The notes under the pieces: generated by a model
The model's input: the letters and a program-made list of their open reading frames with translations, nothing else
What the model was told of the DNA's origin: nothing
Database searches by the model: none
DNA from: Patescibacteria group bacterium
GTDB lineage: Bacteria > Patescibacteriota > Patescibacteriia > Patescibacteriales > BM507
NCBI GenBank assembly: GCA_027858235.1
Contig: JAQIDC010000046.1
Location: 1 to 34,579, forward strand
Direction of reading: 5' to 3'
DNA length: 34,579 bases
Shown here: in pieces, positions 2,146 through 28,166 of the stretch
Layout of the letters: every line of letters begins with the position of its first letter
Numbering within the stretch: position 1 is the stretch's first letter
Made by a program: the position numbers and the translations under genes

Positions 2146-2286
2146 TTTTTGAGGATACTATTTTACTTAGAGTATTTGATAATATTAGGAATTAAACTTG
2201 GAATTAGCTATTGCTCAAAAAAGGGCTTGAAATATTTTTCTTTTTGTGATAAATTAGTTTTAGAATAAATTTGTATAGTTTTACTT

Positions 2287-2313
2287 AAAACACTACTCGA
2301 GTGTGTTTTTTTT
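2287..2313 (+). terminator. Probable intrinsic terminator
   Basis: A short imperfect hairpin (ACACT / AGTGT around an ACTCG loop, flanked by A and T tracts) ends in eight T residues. It closes the phosphorylase/membrane-protein unit. Between 2146 and 2286 I see no gene. Confidence 0.55.
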
Positions 2314-2325
2314 AGCTCAATATAG

Positions 2326-2430
2326 TGGTTTATTAAATTGGGTTCCTTCTACGCCAAGGACCTGGAAGACAAACTTGTAACTATTAGGAAAGTTTTTAAA
2401 AAAATAATAAGAGATGTTAATGACAAATAG
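2326..2430 (+). pseudogene. Possible remnant of a GIY-YIG-type gene
   Basis: A 34-codon open stretch after a TAG reads WFIKLGSFYAKDLEDKLVTI and ends RDVNDK-stop. Its end resembles the last codons of the complete GIY-YIG gene (LSNVNNK-stop), and both stop codons fall at the same place in a 66-bp direct repeat. The segment GSFYAKDLEDKL loosely recalls the FYxGxTxDLxxRL core of the family. There is no start codon and most of the domain is absent. Chance is possible. Confidence 0.2.
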
Positions 2431-2479
2431 TTAATTTGAAAAGTTAACTATTAAATTGTTAATATTCGGGTCGATACTC
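2414..2479 (+). repeat. 66-bp direct repeat, copy 1
   Basis: Matches 2934-2999 at 65 of 66 positions (mismatch at 2422/2942), 520 bases apart. It runs from the last codons of a GIY-YIG frame, through a 9-bp inverted repeat (AATAGTTAA / TTAACTATT), into the first 12 bases of tRNA-Tyr. The copies show that the unit 'GIY-YIG end plus tRNA-Tyr start' was duplicated. Confidence 0.85.
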
Positions 2480-2552
2480 CCGCCTTCTTCGCCAGCTGGC
2501 GAATCCGGACGGGCAGGCAATCGGTCTTTGACCTTTCGGATGTTGATATTAT
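2468..2552 (+). pseudogene. tRNA-Tyr fragment A, interrupted by a GC-rich palindrome
   Basis: The first 12 bases of tRNA-Tyr (GGGTCGATACTC, 2468-2479) match the intact gene and then break into a GC-rich segment. That segment holds the perfect 16-bp palindrome TTCGCCAGCTGGCGAA (2488-2503) followed by TCCGGACGGGCAGGC. The GC content contrasts sharply with the surrounding AT-rich DNA, which suggests an inserted repeat. Nothing of the rest of the tRNA follows, so this copy cannot be functional. Confidence 0.7.
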
Positions 2553-2572
2553 ACAGTTAATTGTTAATATTC

Positions 2573-2693
2573 GGGTCGATACTCAAGCGGTCAACCATCG
2601 CCTTGGCGAGGTAAACGAGGGCAGACTGCCACCGCCGTGGCGGGGTGTCGCTTTTGAGTGAAATGAAAAAAGTTGCGACATAAATCTGCTGGC
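2573..2693 (+). pseudogene. tRNA-Tyr fragment B, two palindromic inserts and no 3' end
   Basis: Matches the intact tRNA-Tyr from G1 through the D arm (2573-2595), then carries a 20-base insert with a CGCC-TT-GGCG hairpin (2596-2615). It resumes as CGAGGGCAGACTG, and a 52-base insert (2629-2680) falls between anticodon bases 34 and 35. It continues TAAATCTGCTGGC (2681-2693), where the match ends two bases before the GIY-YIG start codon. The T arm and 3' acceptor strand are missing. The second insert can form two successive hairpins: CCGCC/GGCGG and TGTCGC/GCGACA. Confidence 0.8.
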
Positions 2694-2695
2694 AT

Positions 2696-2950
2696 ATGTA
2701 TATCGTTTATATCTTGAAAAGTGAAAATTTTAATAGATATTATATTGGACACACAGCTGATTTAAATGAAAGACTTAAAAAACATAATAACGGTCGTGTA
2801 AAATCAACAAAAGCCTATAAACCATGGTTAGTGATTTATACCGAAGAATACGATACGAAACAAGATGCATACAGAAGAGAGATGAAGATCAAGTCATATA
2901 ATAGCGGTGAAGGGTTTAAAGTATTATTAAGTAATGTTAATAACAAATAG
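2696..2950 (+). CDS. GIY-YIG nuclease domain protein
   Basis: An 84-residue stand-alone GIY-YIG domain. It begins MYIVYILKSENF, with YI and YYIG supplying the two signature strands, then DLNERLKKHNNG (conserved Arg region) and the AYRREMKIKSY helix with the expected glutamate. Small proteins of this class resemble the UvrC nuclease domain and the YhbQ group, and some are mobile homing-type nucleases. Here the start codon lies two bases after a truncated tRNA-Tyr copy, and the stop lies 37 bases before the intact tRNA-Tyr. That placement suggests mobility or repair linked to the tRNA array, but this is inference. No ribosome binding site is evident. The domain call is sure; the cellular role is not. 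Confidence 0.85.
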   Translation: MYIVYILKSENFNRYYIGHTADLNERLKKHNNGRVKSTKAYKPWLVIYTEEYDTKQDAYRREMKIKSYNSGEGFKVLLSNVNNK

Positions 2951-2999
2951 TTAATTTGAAAAGTTAACTATTAAATTGTTAATATTCGGGTCGATACTC
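2934..2999 (+). repeat. 66-bp direct repeat, copy 2
   Basis: Partner of 2414-2479. It covers the last GIY-YIG codons, the 27-base AATAGTTAA/TTAACTATT inverted repeat (2946-2972) and the first 12 bases of the intact tRNA-Tyr. Confidence 0.85.
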
Positions 3000-3069
3000 A
3001 AGCGGTCAACGAGGGCAGACTGTAAATCTGCTGGCTCAGCCTTCGAAAGTTCGAATCTTTCTCGGCCCA
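2988..3069 (+). tRNA. tRNA-Tyr (anticodon GTA)
   Basis: An 82-base class II tRNA. The acceptor stem GGGTCGA pairs with TCGGCCC (one G-U), the D arm contains AAGCGGTCAA, the anticodon stem is GCAGA/TCTGC with anticodon GTA at 3022-3024, the variable arm is long, and the T arm is GAAAG-TTCGAAT-CTTTC with discriminator A. No CCA is encoded. This is the only complete tRNA-Tyr in the window; four broken copies (A and B upstream, D and E downstream) derive from it or from a sister gene. Frames antisense to it read 'RERFELSKAEPADL', a well-known spurious translation. Confidence 0.96.
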
Positions 3070-3074
3070 CAAAG

Positions 3075-3099
3075 AAAACTCCACTGACGTGGAGTTTTT
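3075..3099 (+). terminator. Terminator after tRNA-Tyr
   Basis: A perfect 10-bp stem AAAACTCCAC / GTGGAGTTTT with a TGAC loop, followed by TTTTG, begins six bases after the tRNA discriminator base. Confidence 0.85.
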
Positions 3100-3136
3100 G
3101 TTTTGAGAAAAAGTAAAATATGCATATTGCATTTTC

Positions 3137-3237
3137 AACGAGGGCAGACTGCCACCGCCAGCGGGCGGGGTGCCGCCGCGGCGGCATAAATCTGCTGGCT
3201 CAGCCTTCGAAAGTTCGAATCTTTCTCGGCCCACATA
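3137..3237 (+). repeat. tRNA-Tyr fragment D; left copy of a 101-bp perfect direct repeat
   Basis: Contains tRNA-Tyr from the end of the D arm to the discriminator (3137-3233), with a 35-base GC-rich insert (3152-3186) exactly between anticodon bases 34 and 35. The 5' acceptor strand and most of the D arm are absent. I compared it base by base with 9051-9151 and the two are identical over 101 bases, including the insert. The insert folds as two hairpins, CCGCC-AGCG-GGCGG and TGCCGCC-GC-GGCGGCA. It is followed by its own terminator. Confidence 0.9.
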
Positions 3238-3238
3238 T

Positions 3239-3272
3239 AAAATAACTGCAAATTTTAGGCAGTTATTTTTTG
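3239..3272 (+). terminator. Terminator after tRNA-Tyr fragment D
   Basis: Stem AAAATAACTGC / GCAGTTATTTT with a 9-base loop, then a T run. Its sequence differs from the terminator that follows fragment E, so the repeat ends before it. Confidence 0.8.
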
Positions 3273-3300
3273 TTTTACGGAATATGATTTGGAATTAAAT

Positions 3301-3347
3301 AAAAGATATCGATGGTCATTGATATCTTTTTAGTTTAAGAGTATAAT
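3301..3347 (+). promoter_or_regulatory. Promoter and probable ArsR operator of the arsenic/metal operon
   Basis: A 10-bp inverted repeat (AAAAGATATC 3301-3310, GATATCTTTT 3321-3330) overlaps the -35 box TTGATA (3319-3324). TATAAT (3342-3347) lies 17 bases further. An inverted repeat over the -35 box just before an arsR gene is the usual position of an ArsR operator. The -10 box ends nine bases before the ATG, so the message would have almost no leader. The hairpin with a T run could also act as a terminator for upstream transcription. Confidence 0.65.
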
Positions 3348-3356
3348 AAAAAACAT

Positions 3357-3671
3357 ATGGTGGATAAGTGTTGCCTTGATGGCAGTAAAAAACAAAAAGA
3401 ATTGCTTAGTCTTAAAAAGGACTTTGATATACTAAACGATGTTAATCGACTTCGTATTTTGTGCTTGGTTAAAAAACATGACGAGATTTGCGTGTGTGAT
3501 ATTAATGAGTCTTTAGGTCTGTCTCAAAATTTGGTCTCATATCATTTGGGGAAGTTAAAGGACGCCGGTTTTGTCGAGTCAAATAAACAAGGTTCAAGGG
3601 TGCTGTATCGTCAAGGAGTTAAAAAGGCAAAAGAATTTGAGAAAATTATAATCAATTTATTAAATAATTAA
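3357..3671 (+). CDS. arsR: ArsR/SmtB-family metalloregulator
   Basis: A 104-residue winged-helix repressor of the ArsR/SmtB family, which leaves its operator when As(III), Sb(III) or another thiophilic metal binds. The motif ICVCDI (around residues 39-44) is the alpha-3 Cys-x-Cys metal site of the ELCVCDL type. The recognition helix region reads LGLSQNLVSYHLGKLKDAGF. An extra CC pair at residues 5-6 could add ligands. First gene of an operon: the thioredoxin-like gene starts one base after its stop. The inverted repeat over the -35 box upstream suggests autoregulation. With a -10 box only nine bases before the ATG, translation is probably leaderless. Which metal is sensed cannot be read from the sequence. 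Confidence 0.9.
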   Translation: MVDKCCLDGSKKQKELLSLKKDFDILNDVNRLRILCLVKKHDEICVCDINESLGLSQNLVSYHLGKLKDAGFVESNKQGSRVLYRQGVKKAKEFEKIIINLLNN

Positions 3672-3672
3672 T

Positions 3673-3966
3673 ATGAAAATACAAGTTTTAGGTTCTGGTT
3701 GTCCTGCTTGCAAACAGTTGTTTGAAATTACTAAAAAGATGGCAAAAGAATTAAACATTGATACGGAGGTCGAATATATAACTGACGTAAGTAGGATGAT
3801 TGAGATGGGAGTAATGACTAGTCCGGTCCTTGCTATTGACGGCAAACCAGTGTTGATCGGAGGCAATAAAAGAGAGGAGGAAATTAAAGAGGCTATCAGT
3901 GGGACAATAAATAATATTGGAAATAAAAACGGATGTGAGAATTGTTCCTGTGGAGGGGATTGTTAG
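3673..3966 (+). CDS. Small redox-active disulfide protein (MTH895/TM0996 type), Cys-rich tail
   Basis: 97 residues with a thioredoxin-like fold. The N terminus MKIQVLGSGCPACKQL holds the C-P-A-C active site, and TSPVLAIDGKPV supplies the cis-proline segment. The C-terminal tail GCENCSCGGDC adds five cysteines and may bind metal. Members of this family occur beside ArsR-controlled permeases. In ArsEFG-type operons a small thioredoxin-like partner accompanies ArsF, so this could be the ArsE counterpart, which is inference from context. It lies one base after arsR and 23 bases before the permease ATG. A GGAGG run inside its tail lies too close to the next possible TTG start to decide it. Confidence 0.8.
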   Translation: MKIQVLGSGCPACKQLFEITKKMAKELNIDTEVEYITDVSRMIEMGVMTSPVLAIDGKPVLIGGNKREEEIKEAISGTINNIGNKNGCENCSCGGDC

Positions 3967-3989
3967 TCTTAAAATTAAGTTATCTAACT

Positions 3990-4964
3990 ATGGACATTTT
4001 TTACCCTTTAGAATTATTTTCTAAATGGATTACTTATGACATTTTTTCACTGCAAACGGGCCATTTGGCTGGCGCATTGCAGTTTTTTGTTTATGATTCT
4101 TTGAAAATATTTGTTTTAATTATTTTCATTACTCATTTCATGAGTTTGCTAAGATTTTATTTGCCTATTGAGAAATTAAAAGATTTTTTAGCAACACACA
4201 AGTTATTTGGTTTAGACTATTTTTTGGCTACATTATTTGGAGCTCTTACTCCTTTTTGTTCTTGTTCATCTATCCCTTTGTTTATTGGATTTATGGAAGC
4301 ACGAATTCCACTGGGAGTTACTTTTGCATTTTTAATAACATCTCCACTAGTTAATGAAATAGCTATTGGATTGTTTATTGGTATGTTTGGTATGAAAATT
4401 ACCATTATATATGTTACAGCCGGCATTTTAATTGGTATGATTGGTGGATTTGTAATTGGTAAATTAAAAATGGAAAAATATGTAGCTGATTTTGTTTGGA
4501 ATATTAAATCCCAAAAATTAAGTAAAGAAGATGCTAAAAAAATTCCTTGGCTAAAAGTATATAAAATTATCTCCCGTGAAGCCTGGGGAATTAGCAGAAA
4601 AATAATGTTGTATGTTTTAGCGGGGGTGGCTGTCGGTGGGTTAATTCATGGTTATGTTCCGGAAGGATTTTTTGATGTGTATTTGCGGAAGGCTGGTTTT
4701 TGGGGAGTTCCGCTAGCAGTAATATTAGCAGTACCACTGTATTCTAACGCAAGCGGAGTTATCCCAATTATCCAATCATTGGTAGCTAAAGGCGTGCCAA
4801 TTGGAACAGGTTTAGCCTTTATGATGGCTACAGTCGGCCTTTCTTTGCCAGAGGCCATGATACTTAAAAAGGTTTTAAAATGGCAATTACTGGCAACTTT
4901 TTTTGGAATTGTATCAATCGGTATAATTATAATTGGTTATTTGTTTAATTCTTTTATTTTCTAA
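3990..4964 (+). CDS. ArsP/DUF318-type permease (organoarsenical or metal efflux)
   Basis: A 324-residue membrane protein of the PF03773 permease family, which includes the methylarsenite exporter ArsP and the SO_0444-type metal exporters. About eight hydrophobic segments are visible. The hallmark TPFCSCSSIPLFIGF (first third) contains the paired cysteines, and a related VPLYSNASGVIP repeat lies in the second half. I start at ATG 3990; the frame is open further upstream from a TTG at 3942, but that would overlap the preceding gene and add a poorly hydrophobic leader. Third gene of the ars-like operon. The substrate is likely a trivalent or organic arsenical given arsR, ArsF and ArsG neighbours, but a metal cannot be excluded. 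Confidence 0.85.
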   Translation: MDIFYPLELFSKWITYDIFSLQTGHLAGALQFFVYDSLKIFVLIIFITHFMSLLRFYLPIEKLKDFLATHKLFGLDYFLATLFGALTPFCSCSSIPLFIGFMEARIPLGVTFAFLITSPLVNEIAIGLFIGMFGMKITIIYVTAGILIGMIGGFVIGKLKMEKYVADFVWNIKSQKLSKEDAKKIPWLKVYKIISREAWGISRKIMLYVLAGVAVGGLIHGYVPEGFFDVYLRKAGFWGVPLAVILAVPLYSNASGVIPIIQSLVAKGVPIGTGLAFMMATVGLSLPEAMILKKVLKWQLLATFFGIVSIGIIIIGYLFNSFIF

Positions 4965-4995
4965 TTATTAAAAAACATAAAGTTGAAACGTCCTT

Positions 4996-5871
4996 ATGAA
5001 AAATAATATTTTAATCGCCATTATTGTAAATATTTGTATTACAGTTTTTGAGATAGTATTAGGCTTGCTTTCTGGAAGCATGGCCTTGGTGTCTGATGCT
5101 ATACATAACTTTTCTGATGTGGGAGCAATTGCACTTAGTTGGTGGGGTGAAAAAATTTCTCTTCATCCAAGCAATAAACAGAAGACCTATGGCTATAAAA
5201 GAGCTGAAATACTGATAGCATTTATCAATAGCTCTGTTCTCTTAACTGTAATTATTTTTATTCTAATTGAATCAGTCAAAAGATTGCTCAATCCAGTTGA
5301 AGTTGTTGGCTCTACCATATTGATTGTTGCTTTGATTGCCTTGGTCGGTAATAGCATTGCTACATATTTTCTAGAAAAAGATAAACACAAGAACCTTAAC
5401 TTAAAGAGTGCCTGGCTTCATTCCTTGCAAGATGCCTTATTCTCATTGGGGGTAGTGGTAGGAGCGTTGATAATTCATTATACAGGTTGGTTTGTAATTG
5501 ATCCTTTGATATCGATACTCTTAGCGCTTTATATTCTGAAAGAGGTTTTTAATATAATAAAAAAATCAGTTGATGTGTTGATGGAGTCGGTTCCTGCTGA
5601 TGTTGATTCTGATCAGGTGCGTAAAAGTTTAGAAGATATTAAAAATGTAAAAAACATAGCTGATTTACATATTTGGCAGACAGATTCAAATAATAAATTT
5701 TTGAGTGCTCATATTGAAATAGAAAATATTGAAAATGGGGAAAGGAATAAACTACTTCTGAGTATTCAGAATTTGTTAAATGAAAATTATAAAATAAATC
5801 ACACCACAATTCAGTTGGTGTCTATAAATAATTTAGAAAAAAAGATGCTTAATTGCAATCATTGCAACTAG
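4996..5871 (+). CDS. Cation diffusion facilitator (CzcD/ZitB-like metal exporter)
   Basis: 291 residues, six predicted membrane helices and a cytoplasmic C-terminal domain. CDF proteins export Zn, Cd, Co or similar divalent cations in exchange for protons. Helix II holds ALVSDAIHNFSDVGAIALSW with the metal-site HxxxD pattern, helix V holds WLHSLQDALFSLGVVVGA, and the C-terminal domain has the conserved ADLHIWQ. The final residues NCNHCN add a Cys/His tail. Fourth gene of the operon, 31 bases after the permease. Its presence suggests that the operon handles divalent cations as well as arsenic. The cation cannot be predicted with certainty. Confidence 0.92.
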   Translation: MKNNILIAIIVNICITVFEIVLGLLSGSMALVSDAIHNFSDVGAIALSWWGEKISLHPSNKQKTYGYKRAEILIAFINSSVLLTVIIFILIESVKRLLNPVEVVGSTILIVALIALVGNSIATYFLEKDKHKNLNLKSAWLHSLQDALFSLGVVVGALIIHYTGWFVIDPLISILLALYILKEVFNIIKKSVDVLMESVPADVDSDQVRKSLEDIKNVKNIADLHIWQTDSNNKFLSAHIEIENIENGERNKLLLSIQNLLNENYKINHTTIQLVSINNLEKKMLNCNHCN

Positions 5872-5892
5872 AGTATTATAAATAAAATCTTT

Positions 5893-6402
5893 ATGCCCAA
5901 CAAATTAATGTCAATCATTTTACTGCTTTTCTCGGTAGTGACTTTAACTGGCTGTAACAGGCAGATTTCAACTGTTGAGAATGGTGACAAAACTGAACAA
6001 AAACAAGCAGCAGCTACAAGGGATAATTCAGGCACTAGTGAATATCAAGTGTCTAGTGCTGAAATGGTTGCCGAGAAGCTGGAAGTATATTATTTTCATC
6101 GCACTGCTCGTTGTGTGTCTTGTAAAACGATAGGTAGATATACTAAAGAAACAATGGAACAAAAGTATCGCAAGCAAATTGAAGATGGCTTGATTGATTA
6201 TCGTGAGATAAATGTTGAGTTACCAGAGAATAAAGAAATAGCTATTAAATTTAAGGCCTCTGGTTCCTCATTGTTTATTAATAGGATTATTCAAGGCCAA
6301 GACAATATTAAACAGGATGCTAATGTTTGGCGTTTACTTGGTGATGAAGAAAAGTTTAAAAGTTATTTAGAAGCTGTTATTAACTCAAGTCTAGGAATAT
6401 AA
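5893..6402 (+). CDS. ArsF-like thioredoxin-fold lipoprotein
   Basis: 169 residues. It begins with a lipoprotein signal (SIILLLFSVVTLTGC, lipobox LTGC, Cys about residue 21), then a Ser/Thr/Gln-rich linker to residue 65. A thioredoxin-like domain follows, with VYYFHRTARCVSCKTIGRYT carrying a C-x-x-C pair. This matches the family called nitrophenyl compound nitroreductase subunit ArsF in public annotation; ArsEF pairs are reported to reduce nitro-aromatic arsenicals before export by ArsG. Four bases separate it from the ArsG-like permease gene, supporting a functional pair. Assignment rests on the CVSCK region plus context. A general extracytoplasmic disulfide protein is the alternative. Confidence 0.75.
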   Translation: MPNKLMSIILLLFSVVTLTGCNRQISTVENGDKTEQKQAAATRDNSGTSEYQVSSAEMVAEKLEVYYFHRTARCVSCKTIGRYTKETMEQKYRKQIEDGLIDYREINVELPENKEIAIKFKASGSSLFINRIIQGQDNIKQDANVWRLLGDEEKFKSYLEAVINSSLGI

Positions 6403-6406
6403 GAAG

Positions 6407-7120
6407 ATGGATTTTATAAACGCATTAATCGACAATTATAACATTCCGGTGCTTACAGCATTCTTGCTTGGTATTTTAACTTCAATTAGTCCCTGCCCTC
6501 TAGCTACCAACATTACTGCTATCGCCTATATATCGAAAGAACTAAAAACAATTAAGAATACATTGCTCAACGGCTTGTTCTATACATTGGGCAGGGGCAT
6601 TAGTTATACGCTCCTGGCCATTTTGATATATTATGGTATATCAAGTTTTCATATATCAAATATTTTTGAGGGTTGGGGCGATAAAGCGTTGGGGCCAATA
6701 TTGATTATCATTAGTTTAATAATGTTTGGGCTTATAAATATAGATATTGGAGTTAAAAGCGAGAAGATAGAGAGGGTAAAAGAATGGTTATCTCAAAAAG
6801 GATATATCGGCTCACTTTTATTGGGTGTTATTTTTGCTCTAGCATTTTGCCCCTATAGTGGAGTTTTATTTTTTGGGGTTTTAATGCCACTCGTATTGAA
6901 TTCGACAGAAGGCTTTTTGCTGGCTCCGTTTTTTACTCTAGGGACCGGCTTGCCTGTAATTATATTCTCATTTTTAATTGCATTCTCACTGCAGAAAGTT
7001 AGTAAGGCCTTTCAGATAGTACAAAAGGTTGAAAAAGTGATGAGATATCTTGTTGCGAGTGTGTTTATGACAACAGGATTATATTATTTATATATTTTGA
7101 TTAAATATTTACTTGCGTAA
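6407..7120 (+). CDS. ArsG-like / CcdA-DsbD-superfamily permease
   Basis: 237 residues with about six membrane helices in two inverted halves. Each half carries a cysteine-proline motif: TSISPCPLATNI near residue 28 and ALAFCPYSGVLFFG near residue 146. This is the CcdA/DsbD transmembrane fold. With ArsF immediately upstream it best fits the group annotated as aromatic aminobenzylarsenical efflux permease ArsG. The alternative is a pure electron conduit passing reducing equivalents to the ArsF-like lipoprotein. Last gene of the operon. I see no terminator until the hairpin at 7241. Confidence 0.78.
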   Translation: MDFINALIDNYNIPVLTAFLLGILTSISPCPLATNITAIAYISKELKTIKNTLLNGLFYTLGRGISYTLLAILIYYGISSFHISNIFEGWGDKALGPILIIISLIMFGLINIDIGVKSEKIERVKEWLSQKGYIGSLLLGVIFALAFCPYSGVLFFGVLMPLVLNSTEGFLLAPFFTLGTGLPVIIFSFLIAFSLQKVSKAFQIVQKVEKVMRYLVASVFMTTGLYYLYILIKYLLA

Positions 7121-7182
7121 GGCATTATTATTTTATAATACTATAGCGTTGGTTGATAAAATTTCTTGTTGTAGCTTATACT

Positions 7183-7235
7183 ATCCTACTAATTCTTGCA
7201 TATTTAAGTTCCAATCAGACCCAATACGGACCACA
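7183..7235 (+). repeat. Intergenic element, copy 1 of 3
   Basis: Shares the pattern CTAATT-loop-ATTTAAGTTCCAATCAG..CCAATACGG with 8201-8254 and 8929-8982. A 5-6 bp stem with a seven-base loop CTTGCAT (7195-7201) resembles a tRNA anticodon arm with triplet TGC. It ends a few bases before a terminator, as do the other copies. Confidence 0.7.
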
Positions 7236-7240
7236 AATTT

Positions 7241-7273
7241 AAAATCGCCAGAAATGGCGATTTTTGTTATACT
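7241..7273 (+). promoter_or_regulatory. Terminator plus extended -10 promoter module
   Basis: A terminator stem AAAATCGCCA-GAAA-TGGCGATTTTT (7241-7265) runs directly into TGTTATACT (7265-7273), an extended -10 box. The first 31 bases are identical to 10182-10212, where the same module precedes the alpha-glucosidase gene. It both ends upstream transcripts and starts the NIF3 transcript. Confidence 0.7.
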
Positions 7274-7304
7274 TAAATTAGGTTCTAATAATTCAATAAA
7301 AGAT

Positions 7305-8162
7305 ATGAAAGCAAAAGAAATTTATCGAAAACTGGAAAAGGATTTTCATTTGGATCAGTGTAGTGATGATTGGAGTCAAATGGATTTTAACGAATTTATT
7401 TGTGATAATTTCAAGGAGCGTTACATGGGACTGGTTTTGGACAATGCTGAAGAGATCGAAAAAATTTATACAGCAGTTTTTCCTAGCGACAAGGTGCTAA
7501 AAGAGATTCTAGATAAGGATGAAAATAATATATTGATTTTCACACACCATCCATCAACTTGGGACACTACAGTTACTGGGTTTCCATTCAAGGACATGAA
7601 CAAGGACTTGCTTGTAAAATTAAAAGAGAAAAACATTTCTTTATATTGTTTGCATGTTCCATTGGATGCAAATGGGTATTTTTCTACTACTGTTAATTAT
7701 GCAAAAGAGATTGGAGTTAGTTTTGATGAAGATTTTGCAGAATATTACGGAGTGCAAGTTGGGGTGATAGGTGGAACCAATCTTAATTCCCTGAAGGATT
7801 TAGTGAACAGAGTTGAAAAAGCCGTTGGTCATAACGTTAAGTTATTAAAATATGGAAGTGATAATATTGCGAATCAGAAAATAGCTGTTGTGGCTGGGGG
7901 AGGAAATGATCCTGAAATATTAAAAGAACTTTTAGAGAAAGGAATAAAAACATATGTTACAGGCATCGTAAGCGCAGTTGGGGGGTATCCTCCAGCAGTA
8001 GAATTTAATAGTCTTGCAAAAGAAAATAAGATAAATATTATAGGTTCGTCACATTATTCAAGTGAGAAATTTGCATGTATAAAAATGTTACACTATTTTG
8101 AAGCGCTTGGAATCAAGGCTTCGTTTGTGGAAGATAAACCAGATCTTGGTGATATAGTTTAA
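7305..8162 (+). CDS. NIF3/DUF34-family protein
   Basis: 285 residues. The NIF3 family (also annotated GTP cyclohydrolase 1 type 2) binds a dinuclear metal centre; its physiological role is unsettled. Visible motifs are ILIFTHHPSTWD (HHP metal ligands), LYCLHVPLDANGYF and the C-terminal GSSHYSSEKFA that supplies the last ligands. I start at ATG 7305, just after the promoter at 7265-7273. The frame is open to 7113, but that extension crosses the repeat and terminator above and is not coding. The gene lies inside the 101-bp repeat boundaries, after the arsenic operon but in its own transcript. Confidence 0.88.
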   Translation: MKAKEIYRKLEKDFHLDQCSDDWSQMDFNEFICDNFKERYMGLVLDNAEEIEKIYTAVFPSDKVLKEILDKDENNILIFTHHPSTWDTTVTGFPFKDMNKDLLVKLKEKNISLYCLHVPLDANGYFSTTVNYAKEIGVSFDEDFAEYYGVQVGVIGGTNLNSLKDLVNRVEKAVGHNVKLLKYGSDNIANQKIAVVAGGGNDPEILKELLEKGIKTYVTGIVSAVGGYPPAVEFNSLAKENKINIIGSSHYSSEKFACIKMLHYFEALGIKASFVEDKPDLGDIV

Positions 8163-8200
8163 TTGTTTAATATATCATAATTATTGGTTAGTATTTTGTT

Positions 8201-8254
8201 CCATTCCGCTAATTCTCGCATAATTAGGTTCCAATCAGCTCCAATACGGCGACA
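8201..8254 (+). repeat. Intergenic element, copy 2 of 3
   Basis: Aligned without gaps to 8929-8982 (offset 728) with few changes. The stem CTAATT/AATTAG pairs here where copy 3 has TTAATT/AATTAA, which is compensatory change at the closing pair. The seven-base loop is CTCGCAT, triplet CGC at 8217-8219. Confidence 0.75.
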
Positions 8255-8257
8255 CGG

Positions 8258-8298
8258 AAAACAGAACATTTTTATGTTCTGTTTTTATTTGTTATAAT
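8258..8298 (+). promoter_or_regulatory. Terminator plus extended -10 promoter for the methyltransferase-like gene
   Basis: Stem AAAACAGAACA / TGTTCTGTTTT (8258-8285) with T run, followed after TTTATT by TGTTATAAT (8290-8298), 26 bases before the ATG at 8325. Same arrangement as at 7241 but with a different hairpin sequence. Confidence 0.7.
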
Positions 8299-8324
8299 GT
8301 AGTATACTAAAATAATTTTAATAT

Positions 8325-8909
8325 ATGGCATTATCAAAATATCACAATAAATATTCTAGTCTTATTGATGAAGAAATTTTGAATAGAATTGAAGCAAAAG
8401 AAGATGAGTTAATTGAAATTTTCAAGAAAGTTTCTCTTGATAATAATAACAACCTTGCCAGAGTGGCTGTTTTGGGTTGTGCTGACAAGAGATTTGTTTC
8501 AGCGCACAAGATATTGTTTGAAAAAATATTAAATAGAAAAGTAGACCTTACCACATTTGATATTTCGACAGATCATTTAGAAGGAGAGACTAATGTCATT
8601 CAGCATGATTGCACACTTCCATTACCTGGGTCGCTCTATGATGTAACTTTTGGTCATGTAGTTTTAAAATTTATTGAAACAGGTAAACAGTATGATTTTT
8701 TAAAAAATTCTTATGACGCTCTAAATCTAGGTGGTATTGCAATACATGTTTTTGATAATGAGGAAATTAGTTCAGAAAATGAAAAGTTATCAGATGGCTA
8801 TTGGCGTGTCCCGTTAGATGTTTGGAAAACAAAGCTAACAGAGGAAGAAATTCAATTTATGGAAATAGATTTGAAATATGGTCCTGCTCTTGTTATTTTA
8901 AAGCGTTAA
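8325..8909 (+). CDS. Putative SAM-dependent methyltransferase
   Basis: 194 residues with a Rossmann-like plan. RVAVLGCADKRFV (around residue 46) can serve as motif I, LTTFDIS as the acidic post-I strand, GSLYDVTFGHVVLKFI as motif IV, and NLGGIAIHVFDNEE as motif VI. The glycine loop is degenerate (GCADKR in place of GxGxG), so binding of S-adenosylmethionine is not assured. It has its own promoter and no obvious partner. Position between two copies of the intergenic element and inside the 101-bp repeat boundaries suggests it belongs to the same acquired block. Substrate unknown. Confidence 0.5.
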   Translation: MALSKYHNKYSSLIDEEILNRIEAKEDELIEIFKKVSLDNNNNLARVAVLGCADKRFVSAHKILFEKILNRKVDLTTFDISTDHLEGETNVIQHDCTLPLPGSLYDVTFGHVVLKFIETGKQYDFLKNSYDALNLGGIAIHVFDNEEISSENEKLSDGYWRVPLDVWKTKLTEEEIQFMEIDLKYGPALVILKR

Positions 8910-8928
8910 TCTCTATAAATAATATGTG

Positions 8929-8982
8929 CCATTCCGTTAATTCTAGCATAATTAAGTTCCAATCAGCTCCAATACGGCCCAC
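8929..8982 (+). repeat. Intergenic element, copy 3 of 3
   Basis: Third copy, ending CGGCCCACAAAT, which resembles the CGGCCCACA end of the tRNA-Tyr copies. Stem TTAATT/AATTAA closes a seven-base loop CTAGCAT (triplet AGC at 8945-8947). Followed after five bases by a terminator. Confidence 0.75.
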
Positions 8983-8987
8983 AAATG

Positions 8988-9016
8988 AAGAACTCCAAAA
9001 AAAGGAGTTCTTTTTG
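8988..9016 (+). terminator. Intrinsic terminator
   Basis: Stem AAGAACTCC / GGAGTTCTT with an all-A loop, followed by TTTTG. Ends the methyltransferase-like transcript. Confidence 0.8.
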
Positions 9017-9050
9017 TTTTTGAAAATCAATCATTGTATCTTGTAGAATA

Positions 9051-9151
9051 AACGAGGGCAGACTGCCACCGCCAGCGGGCGGGGTGCCGCCGCGGCGGCA
9101 TAAATCTGCTGGCTCAGCCTTCGAAAGTTCGAATCTTTCTCGGCCCACATA
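9051..9151 (+). repeat. tRNA-Tyr fragment E; right copy of the 101-bp perfect direct repeat
   Basis: Identical to 3137-3237. The 35-base two-hairpin insert occupies 9066-9100 and the tRNA 3' part ends at 9147. The upstream flank (TTGTAGAAT) differs from that of copy D. No 5' acceptor strand is present, so no functional tRNA can form. Confidence 0.9.
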
Positions 9152-9153
9152 AT

Positions 9154-9183
9154 AAAAAACACTCACAATTGTGAGTGTTTTTT
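9154..9183 (+). terminator. Terminator after tRNA-Tyr fragment E
   Basis: A perfectly palindromic stem AAAAAACACTCAC / GTGAGTGTTTTTT with AATT at the centre. Because of its symmetry it can work in both directions. Confidence 0.8.
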
Positions 9184-9234
9184 ATGGACTAGAGAATATG
9201 GAGATTTTTGTGTGGCAGGAATAAGAAATATTTG

Positions 9235-9262
9235 TTGACATTCTATGGGGAAGTGGTAATAT
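9235..9262 (+). promoter_or_regulatory. Promoter of the 288-aa secreted protein gene
   Basis: TTGACA (9235-9240), 16-base spacer, TAATAT (9257-9262), 24 bases before the ATG at 9287. Confidence 0.6.
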
Positions 9263-9286
9263 CTTAGCTAACAATAAATCGATATT

Positions 9287-10153
9287 ATGAAAAAATACTT
9301 AATATATATTGCTATTTCTCTCCTGCCTTTATTGGTAGTTTTTATTGTGTTTAACAAAAAAATGTCAGGAGACATTAATTCTAAATGGAGTAGAAGTGAA
9401 TTGAAAGGGGACGTAAAAGAAAAAGAGTCCAAGGAATTTTTAGAAATTGTAGACATTCATAAGGATAGTAATTTAGTAGAGTTAACAACCGGAGAAGAAT
9501 CACACAAAGCGGTCAAGGAAATAGAAATTACCTATGAACAAGACGAGAAAAGAAAGATTGCTGATTTAGGTGGTTTAATTGTTTATTTGGCATTTAAAGA
9601 GCTTAACTGTAATAATATTAGAAATTGGTTTTACGATTTAGATTTAAGGGAGAATTATGAAATAGAAAAGATTAACTATTGTAAGGATGTGTTTAAAAAG
9701 GAAAGTATTAATGTTAATGATTTTGATGTAGTAGTAGAGAAAAAAAATATTTCTTTAGAAATACCTAGATGTGGTAATTATGAAATTGGTAATCCAGATT
9801 TATATGAAGGAGCAAAGGAAAAGTTTGATCATTCTGATTTATATGAAAAAATTTCTATATATTTAGGAAATAATACAAATGAACTTACAAAATATTGGTA
9901 TATAATAAAAAATACACAAAATATCACTAATGAAGATATAAAAATAATTTCTAACTGTGAAGGGTATTATTTCAATTGGCTTAAACCACCAATCTTAGTT
10001 GGTGATTATGTAATAATAGAATCAAGGGAGCCAGGAACAGGAATTAGTAGCTGCTGGGGGATAAATCCAGACAGTACTTACATACAAGAGGGTTTAGTGA
10101 AATGTGTGATAAAAGAAGATGAGTCTAAGAACATAAAATTGTTAATAGAATAA
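9287..10153 (+). CDS. Exported or membrane-anchored protein of unknown function
   Basis: 288 residues. The N terminus MKKYLIYIAISLLPLLVVFI is a signal anchor without a clear cleavage site; the rest is hydrophilic and probably outside the membrane. Five cysteines are spread over residues 107-267 (NCNN, YCKD, RCGN, NCEG, SCWG, with a sixth near the end), so disulfides are likely. Residues 40-100 are Lys/Glu-rich. I do not recognise a family. It has its own promoter and is followed by a terminator, so it forms a one-gene unit just outside the right copy of the 101-bp repeat. Confidence 0.75.
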   Translation: MKKYLIYIAISLLPLLVVFIVFNKKMSGDINSKWSRSELKGDVKEKESKEFLEIVDIHKDSNLVELTTGEESHKAVKEIEITYEQDEKRKIADLGGLIVYLAFKELNCNNIRNWFYDLDLRENYEIEKINYCKDVFKKESINVNDFDVVVEKKNISLEIPRCGNYEIGNPDLYEGAKEKFDHSDLYEKISIYLGNNTNELTKYWYIIKNTQNITNEDIKIISNCEGYYFNWLKPPILVGDYVIIESREPGTGISSCWGINPDSTYIQEGLVKCVIKEDESKNIKLLIE

Positions 10154-10181
10154 CGTTTGATGATATTTTCAATAAAATTAT

Positions 10182-10214
10182 AAAATCGCCAGAAATGGCG
10201 ATTTTTGTTATAAT
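10182..10214 (+). promoter_or_regulatory. Terminator plus extended -10 promoter of the alpha-glucosidase gene
   Basis: The first 31 bases are identical to the module at 7241: AAAATCGCC-loop-GGCGATTTTT followed by TGTTATAAT (10206-10214). The ATG lies 29 bases downstream. Confidence 0.75.
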
Positions 10215-10243
10215 TAGAAATATATTCAACTAAAAATATATTC

Positions 10244-11905
10244 ATGTTTGAAAATAAAAATAAAAAAGAATGGTGGAAGGAAGCGGTGGTTTATCAGGTT
10301 TATCCGCGTAGTTTTAATGATACGAATGGAGATGGAAATGGTGACTTGAGAGGTATTATCGATAAATTAGACTATATAAAAAGTCTTGGAATTGATGCTA
10401 TTTGGATATCGCCAATTTATACATCACCAATGACTGATAATGGTTATGATATATCTGATTATTATTCTATAAACCCTATGTTTGGAAATATGGATGACTT
10501 TGATGAACTTCTTGAGGGAATACACAAGCGGAAAATGAAACTAATGATGGATCTTGTTATTAATCATACTTCCGTAGAACATCCATGGTTTTTAGAATCT
10601 CGTTCTAGTGTTGATAATCCAAAACGGGATTGGTATATTTGGCGAGAGGGAAAAAATGGAGGTGAGCCAAATAACTGGGCTTCTCATTTTATGAACTCGG
10701 TTTGGGAGCTAGATGAAAAAACTAATCAATATTATTTTCACATGTTTGCCCGTGAGCAAGCAGACCTAAATTGGAATAATCACGAAGTGAAAAAAGAAAT
10801 ATTTAACATGGTTGATTTTTGGCTCAAAAAAGGAGTTGACGCTTTTAGGATGGATATGGCCAATTATCTCATGAAAGCAGATGGCTTTCCCGATGCTCCA
10901 AAAAGAGATGGTGATGATAGAAAATATATTCATGGTGAAGGTTTGTATGCAAATCAAGCAGGGATGCACGAACTGATTAATGAGTTAAAAGAAAAAGTTT
11001 TAGCACCACACGGAGCAGCTCTTTTTGGGGAAACGTATTTCTTGGACAAAGATAGTGCCTTGGATTATGTTGCTTACGCGCGAAAAGAATTTGATTTGAT
11101 ATATCAGTATGAAGTCGTTGGGGCTCGTGGAAATTGGGAGGAGGCGAAGAGGTCGGTAAGAGAATGGTATGAATCTTTTAATGGTAAGGGCTGGAATTCT
11201 ATTACTCTTAGTAACCATGATTCACCTAGGCCGATTTCCTTGTTTGGAGATGATGGTGAATACAGAAAAGAGTCTGCTAAATGTTTGGCAACATTTTTGC
11301 TAACCGCACCAGGAACACCATTTTTTTTGCAGGGCGAAGAGATTGGAATGACTAATGTTTTGTTTGAAAATATTGATTGTTATTCTGATATAGAAATGAA
11401 AGAAAAATATAAAGAGCGAGTTAGTAATGGAGAAGATTCCGAAGTTGTTTTTAGAGATGTCGCTAAGTGGAGCAGGGATAATGCGCGTACTCCTATGCAG
11501 TGGGGCAAGACTAAAAATGCTGGTTTTTCTAACGGTAATCCTTGGCTTGGAGTAAATCAAAATTATAAAGATATAAATGTTGAAGCTGAAGAGAGTGATA
11601 AAAAATCAATATTGAATTTTTATAAAAATATTATAAAAATAAGACGGAAACATCCCGCACTTGTTTACGGAGACTATATTCCTTTGGTTCCAGACGATTG
11701 GGAAACTTACGCTTATATGCGCGTTTTAGGAAAGTCTAGGTACATCGTTTTTCTAAACACATCAAAACGAACTTGGAAAATGGACGCCCTAAAAGAACTT
11801 AAGCCAAAATCAAAACTTTTAATTTCCAATTATGATACTCATGATGACCCAGGTGATGGTTTATTATTGCGTCCATGGGAGGTGAGGATATACAAGGCGA
11901 GTTAA
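10244..11905 (+). CDS. Alpha-glucosidase / oligo-1,6-glucosidase (GH13)
   Basis: 553 residues, cytoplasmic, no signal peptide. Hydrolyses alpha-1,4 or alpha-1,6 glucosidic bonds at the non-reducing end of short dextrins, or acts as a related transglucosidase. The start WWKEAVVYQVYPRSFNDTNG is diagnostic of the oligo-1,6-glucosidase-like GH13 subfamilies. Catalytic residues are visible: nucleophile D204 in GVDAFRMDMAN, acid E263 in LFGETYF, and H325/D326 in LSNHDSPRP. The C-terminal beta domain ends LLLRPWEVRIYK. Together with the phosphorylase at 194 it could trim dextrins to glucose and glucose 1-phosphate. It has its own terminator-promoter module upstream; the next gene begins 29 bases after the stop. 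Confidence 0.92.
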   Translation: MFENKNKKEWWKEAVVYQVYPRSFNDTNGDGNGDLRGIIDKLDYIKSLGIDAIWISPIYTSPMTDNGYDISDYYSINPMFGNMDDFDELLEGIHKRKMKLMMDLVINHTSVEHPWFLESRSSVDNPKRDWYIWREGKNGGEPNNWASHFMNSVWELDEKTNQYYFHMFAREQADLNWNNHEVKKEIFNMVDFWLKKGVDAFRMDMANYLMKADGFPDAPKRDGDDRKYIHGEGLYANQAGMHELINELKEKVLAPHGAALFGETYFLDKDSALDYVAYARKEFDLIYQYEVVGARGNWEEAKRSVREWYESFNGKGWNSITLSNHDSPRPISLFGDDGEYRKESAKCLATFLLTAPGTPFFLQGEEIGMTNVLFENIDCYSDIEMKEKYKERVSNGEDSEVVFRDVAKWSRDNARTPMQWGKTKNAGFSNGNPWLGVNQNYKDINVEAEESDKKSILNFYKNIIKIRRKHPALVYGDYIPLVPDDWETYAYMRVLGKSRYIVFLNTSKRTWKMDALKELKPKSKLLISNYDTHDDPGDGLLLRPWEVRIYKAS

Positions 11906-25778: not shown

Positions 25779-26432
25779 ATGAAAAAAGGATTAATAATAG
25801 ATAGGGTTATTAGTGATAGAGTGAAAGGATTTTCTTATAAGGAAATCAGCGATAAATATGGTATTTCAAAAAGTACCGCATCTTTGTGGCTGAAAGATGT
25901 TAAGCTTAGTAATGATGGTGAAGAAAGAATAAGTTTTTTGAGTGAGTCCGGAAGAAAAAAGGCCGCTAATACAAATAAAGAGAAAGCAAAAAATAGATTT
26001 CTTAAAGTAGTTGAAAATTGTAAGACTTTGACTATTAACCCCAGGAAAGAAAACGAAGATTTAAAAATTTATTTAGCACTTCTTTATTGGGGTGAGGGTG
26101 CAAAGACAGGAAGGAGAATGATGTTTATAAATTCAGACTCTGAAATGATTAAAACTTTCCTATATCTCTTGAGAAAGTCTTATCCTGTGGATGAAGATAA
26201 ATTTAGAGCAGTTTTACATCTCCATGATTATCATGATCAAAATAAGATGATAAAATATTGGTCAAGCTTAACTGCTATTTCAAAAGAAAAAATTAGTATT
26301 TACAGGAAGAGTAATACGGGAAAACAAAAGAAAGATAATTATCAGGGTTGTATTTCAATAAGATATGGAGATGTGAAAATAATGGATGAAATTTTTATTA
26401 TTATAGATAGATTTAAAAAAATATATAAATAA
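25779..26432 (+). CDS. HTH protein with LAGLIDADG-like C-terminal region
   Basis: 217 residues. Residues 1-50 form a helix-turn-helix (GFSYKEISDKYGISKSTASL, then WLKDV) like that of resolvases and phage regulators. A Lys-rich linker follows, then LKIYLALLYWGEGAKTGRRM and INSDSEMIKTFLYLLRKSYP with HLHDYHDQ. I associate the YxxLLYWxEGxK pattern with a widespread LAGLIDADG-like family of CPR and archaea; this is recognition by eye. It may be a regulator derived from a homing endonuclease, or an active nuclease. Its last 26 codons overlap, on the other strand, the readthrough end of the serine recombinase frame, and tRNA-Trp begins four bases after its stop. Confidence 0.7.
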   Translation: MKKGLIIDRVISDRVKGFSYKEISDKYGISKSTASLWLKDVKLSNDGEERISFLSESGRKKAANTNKEKAKNRFLKVVENCKTLTINPRKENEDLKIYLALLYWGEGAKTGRRMMFINSDSEMIKTFLYLLRKSYPVDEDKFRAVLHLHDYHDQNKMIKYWSSLTAISKEKISIYRKSNTGKQKKDNYQGCISIRYGDVKIMDEIFIIIDRFKKIYK

Positions 26433-28166
26433 CATGCGGGTGTCGTATAGTGGTAGTACAGGGCTCTCCAAAAGCTCTAGCGTGGGTTCGATTCCTACCA
26501 CCCGTGCAAGATAAGATTTGAGTTTATCAGGATTAGCTGAAAGCTCGAATATAAGCGTCAATTTAGGTGTTCCATTAAGTATTTCATCATAGGTTGGTGT
26601 CTTCTCAAAGACAAGCCCGAATAAGGCTTGTCTTTTTGTTAGATTATCAATGTTTAACAGTATTTCAGCGGGGTGTTCCATTATTTTTTTGGCTTCTTTC
26701 AGAAAGTTTGAAATATCATATTCAGTGATTTCAACTTTATTTCTTTGTGTCTGGGCATTTTTAATATCTACTTCCAATTGTTCAACTTTTTCTTCTAATT
26801 TGTTCATAACAATAGCGCTTGTTGCTTTTTCAATTTTTTCAATTATGTTTGCTTGTTCAAGTTTTAGGTCCGACACAATAAGATTAGCTTGTGATGAAAA
26901 ATGTGCAAGTTCTTTTTGTCTTTCGCGGTATTTATTGATAAATGATAATTCAAGTGCTCTTATTTGTTCAGGGCGGAATTTTATTGATTCAATATATTTT
27001 GTGATATTTTCTTCAAATTCTTTTTTGTTTATGCCTATATATTTATGTTTTCGGGCACAATGATATGTCGGAAAGCCATTTCCTGATTTTCCTTTGGGAG
27101 AGCTACCTAAAAAAGGTTTTTTGCAATTAGGACATAATATAAATTTGTAAGGAAAAAGAGGATTATTTTTTTGTCTCAGGGTTATTTGTTTATCAGGATA
27201 ATAATCGTATAAAACCTCATATTTTTCATCTCCCAGGTCTTTTACGAATATCTTGCCCCTATTTGCCTTATTGAACATTTCTATAGCGACTAGTCCTTCA
27301 TATTTTGCCTTAATTGGCCTGTATTTCGTCCATTTCCTTATTAGTACTCCGCAGTAAGTTGTATTCCGTATATCCCTTTGCATTTTCTTGATAGTTAAGG
27401 GATTGTTGCCCAGTATTTTCAAAACATTTTCGTGAGATTTATCCCATTTGTTGTAGCCTTTTGTTCTAAAGCCCATAGCATTAACTTTATTGACTATTTC
27501 CTGGTCTGTAAAATTGCCAGACGAACGCATTTCAAAAATTTTAATCCAATATTTAGCTCGTTCAGGATCAGGAATTTGAATACTTTTCTTTTTATTACCA
27601 GCATAAGTTCTTTTAATTTTAAATCCGTCCGTGGCTGAACCAATGTGATAGCCGTCAGCTGTTAATTCTATTTGTCGCCCAATGGTTCTAGTTAAAATAT
27701 TTCTTACTTCTTGATTACTATAATCAGCCATTAAGTTTTCAGCCATACCGCTTGGAGAATAGCGGGACCAGTTATATTCAAAACCGACGTGTTCTAGTGT
27801 GTTCTGAGTAGGTTGGATTAATCCTGCGCTGTCAATTAATTCGACACCGTGTTTTGCTAATTCACGTTTTATTTCTCCATATGGAAGTGTACCTCCTCGA
27901 GTAAAGCGATCAATGCTTCTGAATATTAGATAATTTACTGCTCCCGGGTGATCTTTAATGTATCGCATTACTTCACCGTCAAAAATAGGTCGGTATTCTT
28001 TTCGTCCAGAAAATGGTTCTTTGAACACCTTGTTGTCTGGTAAAATATTTAGATTTTTTTTAATTGCTATATCCCGACATATCTTTTCTTGCGTATCAAG
28101 GCTTTCACCCTCTTGGGCTTGTGTAGCAGTGCTAACACGGCAATAGATGATACAGTTTTTTTGCAT
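26355..28166 (-). CDS. Large serine recombinase (integrase-type), C terminus fused through tRNA-Trp
   Basis: 603 residues. Site-specific recombinase of the large serine family, joining attP and attB through a Ser-DNA link. The catalytic domain begins IIYCRVSTATQAQEGESLDT with the nucleophile at S12; FRSIDRFTRGG is the second resolvase signature. The recombinase domain (about 170-310) is followed by a zinc ribbon (ILCPNCKKPFLGSSPKG.. YHCARKH) and a coiled coil (about 420-500). Sequence typical of the family ends near LTLIFELSANPDKLKSYLA. From about residue 553 the frame reads the antisense strand of tRNA-Trp (ARVVGIEPTLELLESPVLPL) and then of the neighbouring gene. The last ~51 residues are therefore chromosomal readthrough; the native stop codon appears to be lost at the junction. 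Confidence 0.88.
   Translation of the reverse strand: MQKNCIIYCRVSTATQAQEGESLDTQEKICRDIAIKKNLNILPDNKVFKEPFSGRKEYRPIFDGEVMRYIKDHPGAVNYLIFRSIDRFTRGGTLPYGEIKRELAKHGVELIDSAGLIQPTQNTLEHVGFEYNWSRYSPSGMAENLMADYSNQEVRNILTRTIGRQIELTADGYHIGSATDGFKIKRTYAGNKKKSIQIPDPERAKYWIKIFEMRSSGNFTDQEIVNKVNAMGFRTKGYNKWDKSHENVLKILGNNPLTIKKMQRDIRNTTYCGVLIRKWTKYRPIKAKYEGLVAIEMFNKANRGKIFVKDLGDEKYEVLYDYYPDKQITLRQKNNPLFPYKFILCPNCKKPFLGSSPKGKSGNGFPTYHCARKHKYIGINKKEFEENITKYIESIKFRPEQIRALELSFINKYRERQKELAHFSSQANLIVSDLKLEQANIIEKIEKATSAIVMNKLEEKVEQLEVDIKNAQTQRNKVEITEYDISNFLKEAKKIMEHPAEILLNIDNLTKRQALFGLVFEKTPTYDEILNGTPKLTLIFELSANPDKLKSYLARVVGIEPTLELLESPVLPLYDTRMLFIYFFKSIYNNKNFIHYFHISISY
26436..26506 (+). tRNA. tRNA-Trp (anticodon CCA)
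   Basis: 71 bases. Acceptor GCGGGTG pairs with CACCCGT (G-U at the first pair), anticodon loop CTCCAAA gives CCA, the T arm is GTGGG-TTCGATT-CCTAC, and the discriminator is G. No CCA is encoded. The D arm is short (TCGTATAGTGGTAGTACA). The serine recombinase frame on the minus strand runs through it, so the tRNA probably marks an integration site. Confidence 0.95.

Follow-up and report, generated by a model that had tools for sequence, protein, structure and literature searches.

tRNA-Tyr halves, hairpin inserts and a small GIY-YIG nuclease gene around an arsenic operon in Patescibacteria

Insertions with GIY-YIG nuclease genes are known from the rRNA genes of bacteria of the Candidate Phyla Radiation (CPR), where they lie outside introns and mostly at the top or the base of a stem-loop (PMC11270868). 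Here we describe a related arrangement at the tRNA-Tyr gene of a Patescibacteria contig of 34,579 nucleotides (the window is the whole contig), one of 72 in a draft assembly. An intact tRNA-Tyr is accompanied by fragments of the same gene, by short GC-rich hairpin inserts, by a small GIY-YIG nuclease gene and, between two identical 101-bp repeats, by an arsenic (ars) operon. The likeness to the rRNA insertions is that small GIY-YIG genes lie within structural RNA genes of the same bacteria and no group I or group II intron is involved; the differences are that the target is a tRNA gene (the word tRNA is absent from the main text of PMC11270868), that an intact copy is kept and that the broken copy is divided, with parts on either side. 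Free-standing and intron-borne GIY-YIG homing endonucleases share with the present nucleases a small gene at the target site, target-specific clades and spread across lineages, whereas our nucleases resemble Slx1 proteins more than those of the homing/UvrC branch, show no intron match and sit beside a duplicated target. The Slx1/UPF0213 proteins (PDB 1zg2, 1ywl) are sequence relatives with a minimal GIY-YIG domain, but the known members are regarded as cellular repair-type nucleases and the present ones look mobile. Elements that enter tRNA genes by means of a tyrosine integrase likewise use a tRNA gene, leave tRNA fragments and bring cargo genes; here, in contrast, no tyrosine integrase was found, the anticodon loop holds a hairpin insert, and fragments flank the intact tRNA on both sides. 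Rickettsia palindromic elements are small palindromic elements, that is, short GC-rich palindromes inserted in genes, and resemble our inserts in this respect, but ours are linked to a nuclease gene and to a fixed position in the tRNA. We found no description of tRNA-splitting GIY-YIG elements in the open-access literature, which is weak evidence of absence; the kind of element is recurrent and appears to be undescribed.

We consider it probable that the two 101-bp repeats (F1 and F2) are 3' halves of tRNA-Tyr displaced by repeated insertion of a small hairpin-plus-GIY-YIG element into the anticodon loop, with the ars block as cargo. The evidence that carries this reading is the anatomy of the locus, its recurrence in other genomes, the polarity of the fragments, the link between the nuclease and split tRNA genes and the clustering of the nucleases by target tRNA. 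The features of the locus are as follows.

2390..2429, + strand: remnant of an older GIY-YIG gene (its 3' end), lying in a 90-nt repeat shared with 2910-2999 (repeat family D3, 90%), the two copies of the frame ending in KVFKKIIRDVNDK and GEGFKVLLSNVNNK, each followed by a stop
2468..2479, + strand: U1, 5' fragment of tRNA-Tyr followed by a GC-rich palindrome (repeat families D3/D4, sequence)
2573..2628, + strand: U2, tRNA-Tyr 5' half ending at G34, its D arm enlarged by a small insertion (repeat search, sequence)
2629..2680, + strand: two-hairpin insert of U2, in the anticodon loop
2681..2693, + strand: TAAATCTGCTGGC, 3' side of the anticodon arm belonging to U2 (sequence)
2696..2950, + strand: Slx1/UPF0213-like GIY-YIG nuclease of 84 amino acids with conserved Y5, Y16, R26, H30 and E62 (PF01541, E 8e-17; PDB 1zg2/1ywl)
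2988..3070, + strand: intact tRNA-Tyr(GTA) (ARAGORN, Rfam RF00005)
3137..3237, + strand: F1, first 101-bp copy
3238..3295, + strand: terminator-like hairpin module after F1, homologous to the module after the tRNA-Tyr 3' fragment in genomes G066 and G001
3357..7120, + strand: cargo genes for ArsR, an ArsE-like thioredoxin, an ArsP/SaoE-like permease, a CDF transporter, an ArsF-like protein and ArsG
7172..7230, + strand: D2 repeat, copy a, between ArsG and NIF3
7293..8162, + strand: DUF34/NIF3 gene (cargo)
8192..8250, + strand: D2 repeat, copy b
8325..8909, + strand: open reading frame (ORF) of 194 amino acids (cargo)
8920..8978, + strand: D2 repeat, copy c; G066 has a copy of 87% identity at its tRNA-Tyr locus
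9051..9151, + strand: F2, second 101-bp copy
9152..9187, + strand: terminator-like hairpin after F2, weakly similar to the terminator at tRNA-Tyr in G001 (p 0.02, uncorrected)

Direct comparison bears out the identity of the two repeats over 101 bp at a spacing of 5914 bp, as given in the initial annotation, and the identity stops exactly at both ends. The full repeat occurs at only these two sites in the 1.43-Mb genome, and the two partial matches to it both lie within the tRNA-Tyr locus itself. The repeats are indeed 3' halves of tRNA-Tyr that lack the 5' part, as had been noticed, but this is only half of the difference, for they carry an insert and are more than plain truncated tRNAs. Compared with the intact gene, each opens with 15 nt from the D and anticodon arms; next comes a 35-bp GC-rich two-hairpin insert placed in the anticodon loop between G34 and U35 (3152-3186 in F1, 9066-9100 in F2; CCACCGCC-n-GGCGGGG-TGCCGCC-GGCGGCA), then the complete 3' half; the terminator-like hairpin that follows differs between F1 and F2. 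The pair could also be an artefact, in which unrelated pieces were linked through the repeat or a separate circle of 5.9 kb was assembled into the contig: the assembly is a draft and the repeat is present exactly twice. The tRNA-Tyr and nuclease part, including an F1-like 3' half, nevertheless recurs in independent assemblies, and we regard this explanation as very improbable.

Upstream, the order is the 5' half to G34, an insert of the same two-hairpin type as that of the repeats but of different sequence, TAAATCTGCTGGC, the 84-residue nuclease ORF and the intact tRNA-Tyr. The 90-nt repeat (2390-2479 and 2910-2999) spans the end of the GIY-YIG ORF, the spacer and the start of the tRNA, from which it follows that an earlier copy of the nuclease gene once stood at 2390-2479; judging from these sequences, at least two rounds of insertion appear to be visible at this locus. 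A group I or group II intron can be set aside, since the Rfam search of 2200-10300 returned only the tRNA at E up to 1.

In the mechanism that we propose, the element would comprise the two-hairpin DNA insert and the Slx1-like nuclease gene, and its target would be the anticodon loop of tRNA-Tyr. Each viable insertion would keep an intact tRNA-Tyr; a 5' half would remain upstream of it and, after a complete event, a 3' half downstream, each with its insert. As the intact target survives, insertions could recur and produce nested fragments (two 5' pieces, an intact gene and two 3' halves); nested insertion in fact predicts the observed order of U1, U2, tRNA, F1 and F2, with the cargo within the older element. 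Slx1 enzymes cut branched DNA; the nuclease would be the cause of a hairpin-directed insertion, probably by nicking hairpins or cruciforms. The ars block may have arrived with an earlier insertion, as its cargo, or through recombination at the 3' half.

In these ultra-small bacteria, many tRNA genes have similar scars next to them. At tRNA-Tyr, the succession of 5' half, insert, nuclease ORF and intact gene is also found in other families and Patescibacteria lineages, as is a second build in which the intact tRNA-Tyr is followed by a short spacer, an insert and a 3' half; both builds occur together in G109 and L062, and the insert pair of L062 has identical loops. A pattern consisting of CAGACTG and the insert matched 12 contigs of a GTDB-based collection (11 Patescibacteria or unnamed-bacterium records and 1 Omnitrophica) and none of the viral contigs searched. 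Among 111 genomes of the order the insert is present in 4, and a backwards control pattern in 0 of 111. Across about 42 tRNA-Tyr loci the fragments are polarised: 3' fragments lie downstream in 16 cases and upstream in 0, and 5' fragments lie upstream in 11 cases and downstream in 2, these two being the leading parts of 3' halves. Both kinds keep the same orientation, and there is a single weak reverse match. The upstream 5' fragment at locus L033 (G012) is 95% identical over 41 nt to the tRNA-Tyr of the window and 77% to its own, a likeness that suggests transfer between families.

The GC-rich inserts might instead be ordinary small palindromic repeats that enter any pseudogene, with the nuclease a bystander, and other such palindromes do sit in D loops, in variable regions and even within inserts. 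Yet the CCACCGCC-type insert occurs at one tRNA-Tyr position only (none was seen at unrelated loci in the 111 genomes), the two inserts of an element match, and nuclease clusters follow the target tRNA, so that we hold this account to be distinctly improbable. The second hairpin of every insert measured pairs over 6-8 bp despite differing sequences. At L128 the left insert is a two-hairpin insert nested in the first hairpin of another, whose second hairpin is intact; at L058, L059 and L052, partial tRNA-Thr genes with hairpin inserts in the anticodon loop stand beside an intact tRNA-Thr, and no nuclease gene is obvious there.

The association between nuclease and tRNA was examined in the contexts of 55 ORFs related to the window protein, drawn from the 111 genomes, counting a tRNA as adjacent if it was intact, on the same strand and within 150 nt. 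An intact tRNA, representing 16 isotypes in all, stands beside 38 of the 55 (34 downstream, 4 upstream); flanking direct repeats, often tRNA 5' halves, occur in 34, both features in 30, and inverted repeats only in 8, of which several lie within rRNA or protein genes. For 645 control ORFs the corresponding numbers are 44 with a tRNA (7%), 12 with direct repeats (2%), 2 with both and 15 with inverted repeats only, and the excess among the nucleases is significant (Fisher p < 1e-26). In a second sample, taken at class level, a tRNA lies beside 23 of 27 nucleases and direct repeats occur in 21 of 27, one locus (L174) being from the genome of L057 and hence not independent; Tyr and Ser account for 20 of the 23 tRNAs, matching the expectation from the tree. 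That tree, of 59 nuclease proteins, requires 23 changes of target label as against a shuffled mean of 40.8 (0 of 200 shuffles as low), and the nucleases therefore cluster by target tRNA and not by host. Its Tyr/Ser(GGA) group has support of 98/93 and spans several candidate phyla, although 6 of its 10 Tyr rows came from the insert-pattern search and the group is thus partly ascertained. The catalytic Y, Y, R, H and E are kept in 60-61 of 61 relatives, no Asn that might correspond to the C-terminal one of the UvrC/homing branch occurs in the columns conserved above 80% among these relatives, and the best PDB matches of the window protein, 1zg2 (8e-7) and 1ywl (8e-5), have been assigned to the Slx1 family (PMC1564403); by sequence, the window nuclease is closest to prokaryotic Slx1-type proteins and would belong with the Slx1/UPF0213 GIY-YIG family. 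At loci L121, L123, L125 and L096, relatives of the nuclease lie between inverted repeats within protein genes and at the 3' end of 16S rRNA, and these loci resemble long hairpins placed in loops.

More broadly, and with slightly less than an even chance in our estimation, these loci may represent an undescribed, minimal class of mobile DNA that is widespread in Patescibacteria, in which a structure-selective Slx1-like nuclease inserts hairpin DNA in the loops of tRNA genes (also of rRNA genes and other hairpins), an intact tRNA is kept or duplicated, and accessory genes such as the arsenic operon are occasionally anchored or carried. The tRNA genes, which are among the most constrained in tiny genomes, appear to be a regular target, and the intact copy would keep the host alive. 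If true, this would account for the many tRNA fragments in Patescibacteria, link a family of structure-selective nucleases to mobility, and provide an integrase-free route by which accessory genes gather beside tRNA genes.

Several observations weigh against displacement by repeated insertion. The inserts of U2 and F1 differ, and a single insertion event should give a matching pair, so that gene conversion or different events are needed. Every other 3' fragment at the tRNA-Tyr loci lies at most about 400 bp from the tRNA, which makes the 6-kb spacing of F2 exceptional. No tRNA is adjacent in 17 of the 55 nuclease ORFs, and the 8 loci with inverted repeats only also depart from the pattern; the nuclease set was picked by likeness to the window protein and the control loci were mostly picked around tRNA genes. 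Cleavage and movement of the element, moreover, are what we infer. A single crossover, in which circular or incoming DNA with the ars block and its own insert-bearing 3' half recombined at an existing 3' half and so duplicated it, is plausible if on balance doubtful. It accounts for the identity of F1 and F2, insert included, while the flanks diverge at once, and does so more simply than nested insertion; in G001 and G066, moreover, a single 3' fragment and an F1-homologous terminator are followed by different genes. It requires, however, a donor with an identical 101-bp site, and none was found in the relatives searched.

The initial annotation had suggested that the repeats could be tyrosine-integrase att sites at the two ends of an island of 5.9 kb. 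On this reading they would be attL and attR of a classical element placed at tRNA-Tyr whose integrase was then lost. Identical direct repeats of the tRNA 3' half do enclose cargo, tRNA-Tyr is a hotspot with variable content, and the D2 sites share tRNA-Tyr-like ends. Against this, Pfam scans of the main ORFs of the window found no tyrosine recombinase, and in the relatives examined there is none on the tRNA-Tyr contig or it lies hundreds of kb off. The intact tRNA stands outside the repeat pair, with F1 starting only 67 bp past it, and the anticodon-loop insert of the repeats is common to nuclease elements, an architecture that they share with the GIY-YIG element. An island would restore the tRNA at one att site and keep a 3' remnant at the other; the intact tRNA does have 3' remnants downstream, but these are two, with inserts, and 5' remnants lie upstream. 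Composition, proposed as a check, gives no sign of an island (GC 32.5% inside and 32.7% outside; codon use not different, p 0.45), and operon and repeats are found apart, in both of the ways that the initial annotation had named as refuting it: 14 other genomes have the ars operon and no tRNA-Tyr or fragment of it in the surroundings fetched, and the repeat type is present in other genomes without the operon. A tyrosine-integrase island is therefore unlikely. Deletion of the block by recombination between the two repeats, also raised there, is possible.

A variable region is anchored at tRNA-Tyr, and by position the ars/NIF3 block is its cargo. The gene content of the block from ArsR to ArsG (ArsR-ArsE-ArsP-CDF-ArsF-ArsG) and NIF3 is as first described, but no family significantly matches the supposed methyltransferase-like ORF (8325-8909). 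The operon is patchy, with the ArsG family above cut-off in 15 of the 111 genomes and absent from G001, the sole genome of the same genus compared. In G001 a phosphorylase and an ABC transporter flank the tRNA-Tyr region at 79-80% identity to the window, and the interval from tRNA-Tyr to the transporter holds one 3' fragment and, over 4.2 kb, genes other than those of the window, where it measures 11.3 kb; G001 also lacks the amylase gene that the window has outside the repeats. The variable region is not bounded by the repeats, for it reaches from tRNA-Tyr past the second of them to about 14.4 kb. In G066, of another family, tRNA-Tyr is followed by a 3' fragment, a terminator homologous to that of F1 over ~56 nt, a different gene and a D2 copy (L130 1502-1567, 87%). 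Since the F1-type terminator is shared with G066 and G001, the first 3' half and its terminator mark the start of the shared variable region, and by the same comparison F2 is peculiar to the window.

The D2 repeat, of 59 nt, follows ArsG, NIF3 and the 194-residue ORF, each copy being succeeded by a different terminator. It is possibly a degenerate 3' end of tRNA-Tyr: its likeness to the tRNA-Tyr 3' half is significant for the G066 copy against that genome's own tRNA and inconsistent for the window copies. A class-wide search for the D2 pattern, in a sample that did not include G066, matched the window only. An integron attC site was considered and rejected, as D2 has no stable fold and no tyrosine recombinase was found among the window ORFs scanned. 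A viral origin was likewise rejected: the insert pattern is absent from the viral contigs, and the sole viral match to the D2 core lies inside a radical-SAM gene, by chance or coding. A terminator-like hairpin with a promoter-like tail occurs twice, at 7235-7275 and 10176-10216 (93% identical). Farther along, a large serine recombinase gene (26355-28166, minus strand) overlaps with its 3' end the tRNA-Trp gene (26436-26507); tRNA-Tyr and tRNA-Trp are 23 kb apart in the window and close together in several relatives.

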